DNA from: an uncultured Bacilli bacterium
Lineage (GTDB): Bacteria > Bacillota_I > Bacilli_A > RFN20 > CAG-449
Assembly: GCA_944332225.1 (NCBI GenBank)
Contig: CALVJO010000008.1
Location: 1 to 49,461 of the forward strand
Length of the DNA stretch: 49,461 nucleotides
Reading direction: 5' to 3'
Below the pieces are notes generated by a model that saw only the letters and a program-made list of their open reading frames with translations, was not told the origin of the DNA and searched no databases. Each line of letters begins with the position of its first letter. The first letter of the stretch is position 1. Below, one piece after another: positions 16,849-23,728 of the stretch. The position numbers and the translations under genes are program-made.

Positions 16849-16890
16849 GATTTTAGATAATGATGTTTTCGTCAATAAAAGGAGATTATT

Positions 16891-17841
16891 ATGACAAGAA
16901 CCAATTTATTAAAAGTATGTGCTTGCTTAGGATTAGCCACGACTTTAGTCGCCTGCGGAGGCACAACTTCCTCTAACCAAAGCTCATTTGATTCTTCAAG
17001 AAATATCACATTATACACAAGAGATACAACTTCAGGAACCAGAGACGGATTCTTCACTGGAATCGGCTTAGGAGACGCTAAAGAAGATAATGCACCTTTA
17101 AAAGACGGGGTAGTCACAGTTGATTCAAACGGAACAATGATGAACCGCGTCGCAGCTGATGTTTACGGCTTAGGATACATCTCATTATCTACTTTATCAG
17201 AAAATGACTCAATTAAAGGATTAGATTACGATGGAGTTGAACCAACAGAAGCAAATGTTCTCTCCGGTGATTATGAATTAACCAGAAACTTTAATTATAT
17301 TAAATGCGCGTCATATTCTGATTCAACTAAAGAAGAATTAGTTAATGCCTTCATCGCCTATATGTCAACTCAAGAAGGAAAGGCAGTCATCCAATCTGAA
17401 GGTGGAATTGTTGAAATTAAAACTACCGATCCAACATGGGCATCTATCGCTTCTCAATATCCTGCAGTCAGCAAAGATAATTCATCAGTAACCTTAAATT
17501 TTGGAGGTTCTACTTCTGTATCTAATACCGCGAAAGCCTTAGCTGAATCATTCGAACAATTAGCAGGAGGAGTAAAATTCAGCCATAATTATTTAGGATC
17601 TGGAGATGCTTATACTAAGACTCAAGGTTCTAATGCCGGCGAATTTGATTTAGCTTTTGCTTCAAGAGAATTCAATTTAACTTCTTCAGAGCCAGCTGCT
17701 GAAGGAACTTATGGAACTTTAGCAATTGACGCAATCGTTGCAGTTTGCAATATCGCTAATCCATATGAAGCTACTGATGCTGCTACTTTAGTATCTATGT
17801 ATACAGGCGAAGTCACAACTTGGGCTGAAGTAATTGATTAA
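16891..17841 (+). CDS. pstS: Phosphate-binding lipoprotein PstS, apparently circularly permuted
   Basis: 316 residues with a lipoprotein signal (LVAC, Cys22) and AAAGGAG before the ATG. Motif order is unusual. The canonical second half comes first: TSGTRDGFF (residues 47-55), VDSNGTMMNRVA, GLGYISLSTL, DGVEPTEANVLSGDYELTR, then a terminal-helix-like STQEGKAVIQSEGG (159-172). A linker (about 173-199) leads to the canonical first half: VTLNFGGSTSVSNTAKALAES (200-220), FDLAFASRE (252-260), IAIDAIVAVCNIANP and TGEVTTWAEV (306-315) at the C-terminus. All phosphate-binding motifs are present and the total length is normal. It captures phosphate for PstCAB. Identity is secure from motifs and operon; the permutation is my reading. 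Confidence 0.9.
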   Translation: MTRTNLLKVCACLGLATTLVACGGTTSSNQSSFDSSRNITLYTRDTTSGTRDGFFTGIGLGDAKEDNAPLKDGVVTVDSNGTMMNRVAADVYGLGYISLSTLSENDSIKGLDYDGVEPTEANVLSGDYELTRNFNYIKCASYSDSTKEELVNAFIAYMSTQEGKAVIQSEGGIVEIKTTDPTWASIASQYPAVSKDNSSVTLNFGGSTSVSNTAKALAESFEQLAGGVKFSHNYLGSGDAYTKTQGSNAGEFDLAFASREFNLTSSEPAAEGTYGTLAIDAIVAVCNIANPYEATDAATLVSMYTGEVTTWAEVID

Positions 17842-17860: not shown

Positions 17861-18811
17861 ATGAATAACAAAGATATAACTGTTGCCAAATCAAATAGAG
17901 TAAGAAAAGGTTTTGATATATTTTGGTATCGATTATTTCAAATAATCACTATTTTATGCGCCTCAGTTATCATCTTTGTTATTATTTTTATTTTAATAAG
18001 GGGTTTAACTCCCTTTTTTCAATCTTATGATATCGATGGTCAATCTTATAGAGTAAATTTAGGTGAATTTTTAATTGGAACCACCTGGTTTACGTCTCCT
18101 AATCATTATGGGGTTGGCTATATTATAATCAATACCATCTACTGCGTTATTCTCTCATTATTAATCGCGGTTCCAATGGCGATTTTTTCTAGTTTATTTA
18201 TTACTAGAATCGCCCCTAAACCGATATCTAAATTTTTATCGATAGTAGTTGAGCTTCTAGCCTCAATCCCTTCGATAATATATGGATTATTTGGCATGGG
18301 TTACATAACCGCATTTTCTAAATGGGTCGCTGAATTATTTAACGTTCAAACCGCGGGAGGACTATCAACTTTATCGGTTGTTTTAGTTTTAGCCTTTATG
18401 ATTTATCCAACAATCACAATGCTTTCGGTCACCTCAATAAACGCGGTTGATAAAAATATAATCAATGGTTCTTTAGCTCTTGGAGCTAGCAAGACTCAAA
18501 CCAACTTCAAAGTTGTTTTAACCTCGGCAAAAAATGGAATATTCGCAGGAATAATTTTAGGAGTAGGACGCGCGATGGGAGAAGCAACCGCGATCAGTAT
18601 GGTTTCAGGAAACGCAAATTCTGGCCCTACCTTTAGTTTATTTGATATCACAAACACTTTAACAACTGCGATATTAAGAGGATTTAACGATACGGTTGGT
18701 TTAGATTATGATATTCGTTTCTCAGTTGGAGTTGTTTTAATTTTATTAATTGTTGGAGTTAATATTATTTTAAACGCAGTTAAGAAGAGAATAGGAGAAA
18801 AATCGAGATGA
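17861..18811 (+). CDS. pstC: Phosphate ABC transporter permease PstC
   Basis: 316 residues with six likely membrane helices. The inner-membrane permease EAA-type loop is visible as [19 protein letters not shown], and SMVSGNANSGPT is typical of PstC. It pairs with PstA to form the phosphate channel. The AAGG directly touching the ATG is poorly spaced, so translation may depend on coupling with pstS 19 nt upstream. It ends TGA, overlapping the pstA ATG by 4 nt. Confidence 0.95.
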   Translation: MNNKDITVAKSNRVRKGFDIFWYRLFQIITILCASVIIFVIIFILIRGLTPFFQSYDIDGQSYRVNLGEFLIGTTWFTSPNHYGVGYIIINTIYCVILSLLIAVPMAIFSSLFITRIAPKPISKFLSIVVELLASIPSIIYGLFGMGYITAFSKWVAELFNVQTAGGLSTLSVVLVLAFMIYPTITMLSVTSINAVDKNIINGSLALGASKTQTNFKVVLTSAKNGIFAGIILGVGRAMGEATAISMVSGNANSGPTFSLFDITNTLTTAILRGFNDTVGLDYDIRFSVGVVLILLIVGVNIILNAVKKRIGEKSR

Positions 18812-20013
18812 GCAAGAGAAAGTTTTTTGATGGCTTATTAAATGGGATCACCTATTTATTTTCATCGCTTGGTATAGTTATTCTTGCCTTGATTTTTGTC
18901 TTTATTTTCTCTACTGGAGGATCAACTTTATCTTTTGATTTACTAAGTGAAGATTACTATTCAACCAATTATGTAGTTAGATATTCTTCACCTTATGAAG
19001 GAGGAAATTATGTCTATTCACCTTCTGACAATGAATATTTTTCTTCTAAATGGGGAATCGCTTTAGAAGATACAACTTCAATTGAAGGAACCGACGCGAT
19101 ATCTATTTCATATATCGATAGAGAATCGCCTTTAATCGACGGTTTAGTTAACGTATCTAATTCTAATTACCATCATTTAGAAATAGGAACATATATCTCT
19201 ACATTATTAGTTAATACCGAAGACGGTAGAGTTTTATCTTCCTCAGTTAGAAATGGCGCGGAAAAAATGTGCGAAACATTAAATCAAGCTCAAACCATAA
19301 CGAACATGAATCTTTCTAGAGGCGGAGGAGGAATTAAAGGATCATTAATTTCTACTTTATATTTAATCTTATTCACTTTGATTCTTTTATTACCTTTAGG
19401 TATCGCCGCGGCTATATATCTATCGATATGTGCAAAAGATAATAAAATAACTAGGGCCTTAAAGACCTTGATTGATATGTCTAGCGGAGTTCCTTCTATC
19501 ATATTTGGTTTAGTTGGATTATTAATATTTGTTCCGATGCTAAATGGAATCATCGGCTCAGATGGTCATTCTTTAATCGCTGGAGCCTTGACTATGACTA
19601 TCATGCTTTTACCAACAGTCATCTCGACGACTAAAGAAACTATCGATGTGATTCCTAAGAAGATAATTAATGGTTCCTTAGCTTTAGGAGCAAGTCAAAC
19701 TCAAACCACCTTTAAAATAATTTTACCTAATGCGATTCCAGGAATATTAACTTCAACTTTATTAGCTATAGGAAGAATAATCGGGGAATCCGCTGCTTTA
19801 ATCTTTGTCATGGGAACTCAAATTCAAGATAATATTATTTTAAATCAAGGATCGACTACATTAGCTACGCATATATATAACTTGATGGGTTTAGAAAATC
19901 CAAACACATCATTAGCCGCGGCTATTGCAATCATAATATTAATTGCTGTTTTGGTTTTAAATATATTAGTTAAATTAGTTGGTTTATACTTTAAAAAGAA
20001 AGGATTGAAGTAA
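18808..20013 (+). CDS. pstA: Phosphate ABC transporter permease PstA with a large extracellular insertion
   Basis: 401 residues, about 100 longer than usual. TM1 (about residues 10-33) is followed by a roughly 140-residue polar stretch rich in Ser/Tyr/Asn (34-175), then the usual five remaining helices. The coupling loop [19 protein letters not shown] matches that of PstC. The insertion lies between TM1 and TM2, expected outside the membrane, where it could contact PstS. Joined to pstC by an ATGA overlap. Family identity is clear; the role of the insert is unknown. Confidence 0.93.
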
Positions 20014-20015
20014 TT

Positions 20016-20765
20016 ATGGATTCGATATTCTCTGTTAAAAATGTCAATCTCTACTATGGAGATAAGCACGTCTTAAAAGATGTCAATCTGGAAATTTATA
20101 AAAAGCAGGTAACCGCGTTTATCGGACCGTCAGGCTGCGGAAAATCTACCTTATTAAGATGCCTAGATAGAATGAATGACTTAATCGATGATTGTAAGGT
20201 CGAAGGAGAAATTCTTTATAAAGGTAAAGATGTAAAGAATTATGATGCGATGGATTTACGTTCCTCTGTTGGAATGGTATTTCAAACTCCAAATCCTTTT
20301 CCGATGTCAATATTTGATAATGTGGCTTACGGACCTAGATGCCACGGGATAAAAAATAAAAAAGTCTTAAAAGAAATTGTTGAAGAAGCTTTGAAGAAAG
20401 CTGCCTTATATGATGAAGTAAAAGATAATTTAAAAGAATCAGGATTAGCCTTATCAGGAGGGCAACAACAAAGATTATGCATAGCTAGATGCATCGCGAT
20501 GAAACCTGAAGTAATCTTGATGGATGAACCAACTTCAGCTTTGGATCCGATAGCTACCTTAAAAATTGAAGAATTAATTAATGACCTTAAAAAAGAATAT
20601 ACCATAGTTATCGTGACTCATAATATGCAGCAAGCGACTAGAGTTTCAGACTATACAGCTTTTTTCATGCTAGGAGAAATTGTTGAATATAATAAAACCG
20701 GGGAACTATTTAAAAGTCCTAAGAATAAAAAGACAGAAGATTATATTACGGGGAGATTTGGATGA
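20016..20765 (+). CDS. pstB: Phosphate ABC transporter ATPase PstB
   Basis: 249 residues. Walker [10 protein letters not shown] (about residues 35-43), Q-loop [14 protein letters not shown] signature LSGGQQQR, Walker [14 protein letters not shown] and H-loop VTHNMQQA are all present, and the phosphate-family [11 protein letters not shown] sequence is diagnostic. It powers the PstCA channel. It starts 2 nt after pstA and overlaps phoU by 4 nt. Confidence 0.97.
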
Positions 20766-21409
20766 TGAACAGCTTAGAAAAGGAATTAGAGTATTTAACT
20801 GAAACTTTAATTAGGATGGGAAACAATGTGATTGCTAATCTAAAAATCGCGTTTGATTGCTATCTTAATTACGATGAAAAGAAAGTCTATGAGATTAATG
20901 ATGATTTAATCGATCAGCAAGAAAGATTACTAGAAGAAGAATGCTTAGATATCTTAATTAAAGAGAGAGCCTATGCTTCTGATTTAAGAATGGTCACCGG
21001 AATCTTAAAATTGATTTCTGATTTAGAAAGATTAGGTGATCACGCGGAAGATATTTTAGAGTTTGCTTTAAGATTAAAAGACGCGGAGAAGCATCATTTA
21101 GATAAGATAGATTATATGGCAAACGTATCTTTAGAGATGGTTAATAACGCGATTACTTCCTTTGTTAAGCGAGACAAAAATTTAGCTAATAAAGTTATAG
21201 ATACTGATGCCTTAGTTGATAAGAAATACTATGAGCTCATCGACTTAATAATTGAATTATTAAAGGAAGAAAAAATATCATCTCCTTTTGCTACATATAC
21301 CATTCTTATTGTAAAATATATCGAGAGAGTTGCTGATCACGCGGTTAACATTGCCGAATGGGTGGTCTATATTCTTTCAGGATTCCATAAGGATAGAAAG
21401 ATATTTTAA
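20762..21409 (+). CDS. phoU: PhoU phosphate signalling regulator
   Basis: 215 residues, two tandem three-helix bundles, each with the metal-binding E/DxxxD pattern seen in [16 protein letters not shown] and [18 protein letters not shown]. PhoU connects the Pst transporter with the PhoR kinase, switching it off when phosphate is ample. Two adjacent ATG codons (20762 and 20765) are both possible starts. Its ATG overlaps the pstB TGA. Confidence 0.95.
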
Positions 21410-21410
21410 G

Positions 21411-22079
21411 ATGGATTATCTAATTTATTCAGTTGAAGACGACAAAAATATAGCAAGAATTCTTGAAGTAGCCTTGAAAAGAGAAGGCTATGAATTTTGC
21501 CATTTTTTAGATGGTAATTCTTTTCTATCAGCCTTTTATAAAAGAACTCCAAATATGGTGCTTCTAGATATGATGCTTCCAGATATTCAAGGCAGCGAGA
21601 TTTTAAAAACTATCAGAAAAGAAGAAAGATTTGATGATGTTGAAATCATTATTCTTTCGGCTAATAGAATGGTGATGGATAAAGTTGATGGCTTAGATCT
21701 CGGCGCGGATGATTATATTGAAAAACCTTTTGATATTCTTGAATTGATATCTAGAATCAATGCAAAAGTCCGTCGTCATATAAAAAATAACACAGTCACC
21801 TATAAAAATATTGAAATAGATTTTGACCGTCATTCAGTTAGAAAAGATGGGGTATTGATAGAGTTAACCGGTAAAGAATATTTAATTTTGTCTATGCTCT
21901 TTAAACGAGGAGAGAAGGTTTTAACTAGAGAAGAAATCTATCAAGCCCTGTGGGGTCAATCCGCGGTGGAATCGAGAACTGTTGACATGCATATAAAATC
22001 ATTAAGGAGGAAGTTATCCGATTCTAAAGGACAATTTATTAAAACTGTCTATGGAGTTGGATATCGCTTAGAAATATGA
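21411..22079 (+). CDS. phoP: Phosphate response regulator (OmpR/PhoB-type)
   Basis: 222 residues from MDYLIYSVEDDKNIARI; the ATG at 21411 is chosen because residues upstream in the open frame belong to phoU and the receiver fold starts here. Receiver domain residues: acidic pair at 9-11, phospho-acceptor Asp53 (MVLLDMMLP), and Lys in ADDYIEKPF. The winged-helix domain (about 125-222) includes LTGKEYLILSML and RTVDMHIKSLRRKL. It likely binds the TTTACA repeats at 16800-16826. It overlaps the kinase gene by ATGA. PhoB and PhoP are equivalent names; assignment rests on operon context. Confidence 0.93.
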   Translation: MDYLIYSVEDDKNIARILEVALKREGYEFCHFLDGNSFLSAFYKRTPNMVLLDMMLPDIQGSEILKTIRKEERFDDVEIIILSANRMVMDKVDGLDLGADDYIEKPFDILELISRINAKVRRHIKNNTVTYKNIEIDFDRHSVRKDGVLIELTGKEYLILSMLFKRGEKVLTREEIYQALWGQSAVESRTVDMHIKSLRRKLSDSKGQFIKTVYGVGYRLEI

Positions 22080-23728
22080 GAAAAAGATTGATAATTACTG
22101 AAAGCGTAGTTATCTTTTTTTCCCTCATTTTAATGTTGGTCTTTTTAGGATTTTTTGTTTCTCGCGAGTCTAATATTAATAATGAAAAGAATCTAAATAA
22201 TTATGTTTCAATAGCTTCTAATATCTTTGATGGAAGTAATTTTGAAGAGACAAAGAATGCTTTTTCATTAGAAGATAATATTAGAATTACTATTATCGAT
22301 AATCAGGGTAATGTCATTGAAGATAATTTTTCTTCGGAAAATGATAATCATCTCTCTCGTCCGGAAATTCAAGATTTAGGAACAGTTTACTATCGTTACT
22401 CAGATTCTTTAAAGATGGATATGGCCTATTTAGCCGCGATTGATAACGATTATTATATTAGAATTGCTATCCCTCGTTATGATTTAGATAATCTGATTAA
22501 CACTCTTCTTATTTATGGGTCGATAGGATTAGTTATAATCACCATCATCGATATCTTCTGCGCGTATTTTTTAACTAAGAATCTATATAAGCCTCTCGTC
22601 TCTGAACTTAATAAAACCTCGCTTTTAATCGGTGATAATAAGGAGCTTAAAGGTGACGATATTGAATTGATTCACGATGAAATAGTCTCATTAAATTCAT
22701 CTTTAAGAGAGAAGATCGCTCTTTTAAAATTAGAAAAAGATAAAATAGATTTTATCTTAAATCACATTAACCAAGGCTTAATAATAGTAGATGAAAACGG
22801 GAAAATAATAATGTTCAATAATGTGGCTGGAAAGATATTAAATATCGATCAAGACCATGCCTTAAATCAATCTTATCTATATTTAACGAGAGACGAATCT
22901 TTTATTAATAATCTTGAAATTTGCTTAAAAGAAGGAATCCAGCAGTCATTTGATTATGCTTCAGAAGGAAAGACTTATCTAATTGATATAGAAAGAATCT
23001 CATCAAAATATAGCTTTGCTTCATCAGCTAATCTTATAAGCGTCATGTTAATCGATATCACCTCAAAAAAAGAAATCGATACCATCAAAGGAGAGTTTTT
23101 CCAAAATGCTTCCCATGAATTAAAGACTCCTTTAACTTCGATAATCGGTTCTTTACAATTAATCAAACATAATATAGTAACTAAGAAAAAGGAAGTTTTA
23201 GAGCTCATCACTTCGTCTTTAGAAGAGGCTAATAAGATGAATCAGTTAATAGTTGAGATGCTAGATTTATCTAGGATTGAATTAAAAGAAGAAAAGAAAA
23301 TTGAACACTTGAACGTAAAAGACTTCGTTAATGATGTTATCACTTCATTAGTTTTAGATATTAATGAAAAGCATCTTAAAGTAATTCTTGCTTTAGACGA
23401 TTGTTTCATCAACATCAATCGAGGAGATCTTGATAAACTGATATCTAATTTAATCACTAATGCGGTTAAATATAATGTTAAAAACGGAACCTTAAGTCTA
23501 ACTTTGAATCAAACCTTCTTTAAAGTTGAAGACACAGGAATCGGAATCGAAGAAAAAGAATTAAATAATATCTTCAAACGATTCTATCGGGTGGAAGGAA
23601 ATAATATTCAAGGCTCAGGATTAGGCTTATCGATAGTTAAGCATATCGTCCAAAATTATAATTTTAAAATAGAAGTAGAATCAACCTTAGGAAGAGGTTC
23701 CACTTTCACAGTTTTCTTTAAAGACTAG
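22076..23728 (+). CDS. phoR: Phosphate sensor histidine kinase PhoR
   Basis: 550 residues. TM1 (about 7-29), an extracellular region (30-138), TM2 (about 141-166), a linker/HAMP-like region (167-215), a PAS domain (about 222-330), HisKA with phospho-acceptor His347 in FFQNASHELKTPLTS, and HATPase_c with NLITNAVKYN (N box), VEDTGIGIEEKEL (G1) and GSGLGLSIVKHI (G2). This is the domain order of Firmicute PhoR. It phosphorylates the regulator encoded upstream. Last gene of the phosphate operon; no clear terminator before the fmt promoter. Confidence 0.93.
   Translation: MRKRLIITESVVIFFSLILMLVFLGFFVSRESNINNEKNLNNYVSIASNIFDGSNFEETKNAFSLEDNIRITIIDNQGNVIEDNFSSENDNHLSRPEIQDLGTVYYRYSDSLKMDMAYLAAIDNDYYIRIAIPRYDLDNLINTLLIYGSIGLVIITIIDIFCAYFLTKNLYKPLVSELNKTSLLIGDNKELKGDDIELIHDEIVSLNSSLREKIALLKLEKDKIDFILNHINQGLIIVDENGKIIMFNNVAGKILNIDQDHALNQSYLYLTRDESFINNLEICLKEGIQQSFDYASEGKTYLIDIERISSKYSFASSANLISVMLIDITSKKEIDTIKGEFFQNASHELKTPLTSIIGSLQLIKHNIVTKKKEVLELITSSLEEANKMNQLIVEMLDLSRIELKEEKKIEHLNVKDFVNDVITSLVLDINEKHLKVILALDDCFININRGDLDKLISNLITNAVKYNVKNGTLSLTLNQTFFKVEDTGIGIEEKELNNIFKRFYRVEGNNIQGSGLGLSIVKHIVQNYNFKIEVESTLGRGSTFTVFFKD

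Follow-up and report, generated by a model that had tools for sequence, protein, structure and literature searches.

A circularly permuted PstS lipoprotein heading a pst operon in Bacilli, and changes of register among its relatives

The pst operon of the window

The window, that is, the whole stretch of 49,461 nucleotides analysed here (contig CALVJO010000008.1 of an uncultured Bacilli bacterium), carries a complete pstSCAB-phoU operon that is headed by pstS and extends into the genes of a response regulator and a sensor histidine kinase. For its description, the PstS chain is divided into three segments: NH, from GSTSV to TTW; CHa, from I..YTRD..SGTRD to R.FNY; and CHb, the C-terminal helices. 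Three circular orders, or registers, are distinguished: P0 (NH-CHa-CHb, canonical), P1 (CHa-CHb-NH, that of the window PstS) and P2 (CHb-NH-CHa). The features of the locus are as follows.

16880..16884, +: ribosome-binding site AGGAG of pstS (sequence)
16891..17841, +: pstS, circularly permuted, predicted phosphate-binding lipoprotein, 316 aa and TAA (sequence, profile and PDB matches, homologue alignment, model)
16891..16956, +: signal peptide and lipobox LVAC (Cys22), the sole lipobox (Cys22 invariant in 24 homologues)
16996..17316, +: CHa, canonical third quarter (TRDTTSGTRD to TRNFNYI), residues 36-142 (alignment; two-piece match to canonical PstS)
17317..17481, +: CHb, canonical C-terminal helices and linker, residues 143-197 (alignment)
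17419..17487, +: junction linker from canonical C-terminus to canonical N-terminus, residues ~177-199, WxxI..YP motif (alignment; vestige in register-reverted relatives)
17482..17838, +: NH, canonical N-terminal half (GGSTSV, GSGDA, SRE, TGEVTTWAEV), residues 198-316 (profile and PDB matches, alignment)
17861..18811, +: pstC, permease (ORF; Pfam BPD_transp_1; conserved next gene in relatives)
18808..20013, +: pstA, permease with long extracellular loop (ORF; Pfam BPD_transp_1 at residues 196-391)
18913..19335, +: PstA TM1-TM2 loop, about residues 36-176, approximate (sequence; no Pfam match)
20016..20765, +: pstB, ATPase (ORF; conserved order in relatives)
20762..21409, +: phoU (ORF; conserved order)
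21408..22079, +: PhoB/PhoP-type response regulator, start approximate (ORF; conserved order)
22076..23728, +: PhoR-type sensor histidine kinase (ORF; conserved order)

Positions 16891-17841 hold one intact frame whose translation gives a 316-residue lipoprotein closed by a TAA stop, with the start of pstC 20 bases beyond. A preliminary description of this DNA had claimed a swapped order of motifs within one continuous frame, and the translation bears this out: in place of the canonical order, which has the GSTSV half first, the protein runs CHa-CHb-NH, so that SGTRD (residues 48-52), SNG, GYISL and the C-terminal helices precede GGSTSV (205-210), SRE (258-260) and TTW, the last within TGEVTTWAEV (306-315). 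The DSNGTM, GLGYISL and STQEGKAVIQ motifs are likewise present where they had been placed, and the lipobox said to stand alone ahead of everything, LVAC with Cys22, has no second counterpart in the protein. Residues R44, S48, G49, T50, G206, S207, S209, G236, S237, S258 and R259 are invariant in an alignment of 24 sequences, and these columns (R..SGT, G.S, GSG and SR) presumably represent the phosphate site known from PstS structures.

Homology and fold of the permuted protein

The NCBIfam profile TIGR02136 splits on the window PstS, with residues 36-171 matching profile positions 161-291 and the later half matching positions 26-161. Rotated in silico to the canonical order, the sequence gives an unbroken match of 115.5 bits (profile positions 40-291 of 295), compared to 105.1 bits as encoded; both scores lie below the curated cut-off of 206.6 bits and mark the protein as a divergent member of the family. 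The canonical PDB chains 1twy, 4q8r and 4gd5 also align in two swapped pieces, with E values of 1e-16 to 1e-18 that exclude chance, and both halves are homologous to PstS by profile and PDB chain matches alike. The protein further matches PstS type II profiles. Profile-based annotation renders a permuted PstS as two weak partial matches.

Using a family profile, the chain of PDB entry 4H1X is colinear with the window PstS throughout (residues 34-313 on 6-263; E 1.6e-40). Structure prediction, proposed earlier as a check, yielded an AlphaFold model built from 24 homologues with a mean pLDDT of 91.5, the top PDB fold match of which is again 4H1X (TMt 0.86), whereas canonical 4q8r reaches a TMt of only 0.35 when compared in sequence order. 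The proposal of a circular permutation of one PstS fold is thus backed by a confident model, by colinearity with a solved structure and by the conserved permuted family described below.

The window gene very probably encodes a circularly permuted but functional PstS lipoprotein of a Pst ABC importer, belonging to an old, widespread permuted clade of Bacilli in which the register has most likely changed by duplication-type events. The cut would fall within the surface loop that separates TTW..V from I..YTRD; about 20-35 linker residues would bridge the former C- and N-termini, and the new start would have acquired its own signal peptide with lipobox. The product is expected to keep the two-lobed fold of type II binding proteins and to pass phosphate to PstCAB, with only the attachment point of the lipid anchor being different. 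Phosphate binding is suggested by the invariant motifs and the operon context, and the window's Pst system is presumed to transport phosphate.

Distribution of the permuted order

The motif order was sought in related genomes, as had been suggested, and was found in congeners and in many families of the class Bacilli. Two congeneric genomes encode proteins of about 64% identity with the same order across residues 1-316, and 68 of the 279 genomes of the host's order gave a match, about 46 of these being near full-length and colinear and hence permuted. Sampling within the class Bacilli yielded more than 100 distinct permuted PstS sequences from many of its families, the named hosts including Acholeplasma laidlawii, A. 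oculi, Paracholeplasma vituli and Tenericutes bacterium MO-XQ; these were recovered by an alignment-based scan, while a scan of named genomes with the single window sequence gave no match. The loci examined comprise 154 ORFs of CH-NH order, 22 of NH-CH order, nine double tandems and one triple tandem, counts by half order that include some overlapping loci, and represent 152 distinct sequence units. The lipobox is kept in all registers, standing ahead of the first domain in 104 of 107 P1 proteins and in both P2 proteins, and the pstSCAB-phoU context is nearly universal. The permutation is old and common to many Bacilli rather than peculiar to the window. Textbook example of a binding protein though it is, PstS is usually permuted in a large group of bacteria.

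Several loci bear unusual arrangements. Two adjacent permuted pstS genes occur in one genome (L154:4496-6514:-), two very similar pst operons lie on the MO-XQ chromosome (L090 and L107), and one genome (G448) has separate pst operons for a canonical pstS and for a permuted one (L172 and L173). Proteins of about 420 aa encoded at L195:5610-6869:- and L196:5058-6332:+ combine apparent membrane helices with a weak, PstS-like domain of canonical order behind them, and are possibly membrane-anchored relatives.

Changes of register within the window's clade

With the profile divided into three segments, the clade of the window (clade A) proved to contain all three registers together with in-frame tandem fusions. 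P1 is its majority register; P0 was regained twice, in four genomes (L187, L188, L190 and L191) and in L189, and P2 was reached twice (L194 and L203), with L189, L194 and L203 representing one genome each. A PstS tree built on NH and CHa, in which the order itself is not used, requires at least five register changes when tandems are counted as P1. Approximately unbiased (AU) tests reject a single clade of all P0 proteins (p 1.8e-92), a union of the two regained-P0 groups (p 2.3e-6) and a union of the two P2 proteins (p 0.016). A tree of PstC, PstA and PstB, which is independent of PstS, likewise nests L187-L191, L194 and L203 in the window's clade and implies six changes. The PstS sequences are compatible with one common origin of the permuted order (p-AU 0.57), which the transporter genes reject (p-AU 0.00095); clade C, which includes 4H1X, may or may not share one permutation with clades A and B.

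The regained-P0 proteins bear 25-29 extra C-terminal residues, whereas other canonical PstS proteins end 0-5 residues past the helix. Compared with the junction linker of P1 relatives, the tail of L189 gives a matching score of 53, against 45 for the best of 200 shuffles; the tails of L190 and L191 match this linker more weakly, and those of L187 and L188 are not significant on their own (z about 2), being linked to it only by their similarity to L190 and L191. By their sequence, these tails indicate a putative vestige of the junction linker and a reversal from P1 to P0, most firmly for L189. It is likely that PstS of the Acholeplasma-like Bacilli shifts repeatedly and reversibly among three registers by way of extant tandem fusions, in a pst operon that is otherwise conserved. 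If so, this reversible series is a live natural case of permutation by duplication, with the linker vestiges giving its direction.

Tandem fusions and the route of rearrangement

If permutation proceeds by duplication, tandem intermediates in fused form are to be expected (PMC3320104). Fusions of the type (CHa-CHb-NH)x2 and x3 occur in single ORFs, nine with two units and one with three, at no fewer than four places on the tree; their copies are 81-98% identical in DNA, and one of them (L164) sits in a contig of 1.88 Mb. The triple fusion (L042:4132-6861:+) encodes a PstS of 910 aa, its three permuted units complete and in frame, and lies before pstC in a genome of the Acholeplasmataceae. A P2 genome (G445) and a tandem genome (G398) share the same genus code, and no remnants of a trimmed tandem were found next to the P2 gene L203. 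For a tandem protein, AlphaFold gave a model with a pLDDT of 52.5, too low to show how its halves pair.

Since every register is a sub-stretch of (CHa-CHb-NH)n, tandems can yield any order. A change of register would most likely begin with whole units fused in tandem within one frame, which are then trimmed at either end, and the same route could later have produced the relatives with the regained canonical order or the third order. Duplication and deletion had been proposed for the window gene itself, and the tandem fusions and three registers of its relatives speak indirectly for such a route. All observed tandems, however, duplicate the already permuted unit, and none represents the intermediate of the first change from P0 to P1; the window's own ancestor may have arisen in this way. 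With three orders and with fusions of two and of three units all serving one type of transporter, the need for working tandem intermediates can be tested with natural proteins.

Alternative explanations

The same order might have been reached by fission and fusion, with separate half-genes fused in the opposite order, and the coincidence of the cut points with loop boundaries is in keeping with this. Scans of the loci with half profiles revealed no separate complete half-genes, the sole fragments being partial genes such as L006/L011 in G015 (on two contigs), L205 and L206, and the tandem fusions expected of duplication are present instead, which makes fission and fusion improbable. Far less credible is an assembly chimera of two neighbouring pstS genes. 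Nothing was found in its favour beyond the fact that the window genome is a draft of 48 contigs; this genome has one pstS locus, and the same order recurs in congeners, in dozens of independent genomes and in a solved structure. The chimera was rejected on this independent conservation. The divergent profile score, along with the PhoU and two-component system of the operon, could also suit a phosphate sensor or decoy that is no longer a transporter subunit. This too is very improbable for a protein that is the sole PstS-family match in its genome, retains all binding motifs and is followed directly by pstCAB.

A further possibility is an adaptive permutation that evolved in concert with the long loop of PstA or with the geometry of the anchor, the enlarged loop having been proposed previously as a matching change. 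Loop lengths were taken from a simple hydropathy scan, with one outlier (L095). The TM1-TM2 loop of PstA measures 149 aa in the congeners L037 and L038 and is long (about 125-160 aa) throughout clades A and B with PstS in any register, so that permuted PstS and long loop do co-occur in the window's clade and in clade B. In canonical operons and the permuted operons of clade C (4H1X type), however, the loop is short (13-40 aa; 13-34 aa for clade-C permuted operons), and within the window's clade it remains long beside register-reverted (146-159 aa) and third-register PstS alike (145-161 aa overall). The long loop is thus a trait of the clade and not a match to the permutation, and the proposed correspondence is not supported as a general rule; an adaptive origin of this kind is unlikely, marginally more so than fission and fusion. 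The window PstA loop itself, an extracellular stretch of about 150 aa between the first two membrane helices, has no Pfam match, and the PstA proteins of L187, L188 and L190-L193 extend to about 550-590 aa compared to the usual 400 in the clade. As for the lipid anchor, its suggested displacement relative to the binding cleft follows geometrically from the permutation; with a lipobox in every register, there are three anchor points beside the same type of transporter, and the position looks tolerated rather than required. Whether it matters for delivery to the permease is testable with natural PstS proteins.

Comparison with known systems

The structure of a permuted PstS has already been solved. 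PDB entry 4H1X, SP_2084 of Streptococcus pneumoniae, deposited and released in 2012 as phosphate-binding protein PstS 2, is a phosphate binder of the pst type that shares the circular order, cut point and fold of the window PstS and is colinear with it. It differs in its sequence, at about 30% identity, and in belonging to a separate permuted clade with a short PstA loop in its pst operons. Going by locus numbers, SP_2084 presumably lies in the operon adjoining pnpRS. The operon adjoining pnpRS was named pst1 by Zheng et al., as opposed to the PstS 2 of the PDB entry. Deletion of both pneumococcal Pst systems approximately halved the rate of phosphate uptake in an unencapsulated strain (PMC4913102), and on this basis whichever system holds SP_2084 is probably a working one. 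S. pneumoniae also possesses a canonical PstS (4exl), the chain of which begins with the NH half. No paper linking PstS with circular permutation was found in the literature searched, within which the solved pneumococcal protein has apparently gone unremarked since 2012.

Canonical PstS proteins (TIGR02136 type; 4q8r, 4gd5, 1twy and 4exl) have homologous halves, the same motifs and a pst operon in common with the window PstS, but their halves stand in the opposite order, with no junction linker. Among published proteins, the closest analogue is a permuted sugar-binding lipoprotein, Tp0684 or TpMglB-2 of Treponema pallidum (PMC4990184), a naturally permuted, membrane-tethered substrate-binding protein of an ABC system that still binds its ligand and for which the authors likewise ask if permutation relates to tethering (PMC4990184). 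With its type I sugar-binding fold, other ligand and other cut point, it is a precedent and not a relative.

Several circular orders with duplicated intermediates are also known from DNA methyltransferases and from saposin and swaposin (PMC3320104). PstS differs from these in its fold and in register changes that run both ways within one conserved operon and leave a putative vestige of the linker on the reverted proteins. New here are all three registers, together with two- and three-copy tandem fusions, inside a single clade, and these relatives of the window PstS, shuffled through all three orders, provide an unusually clear record of circular rearrangement.
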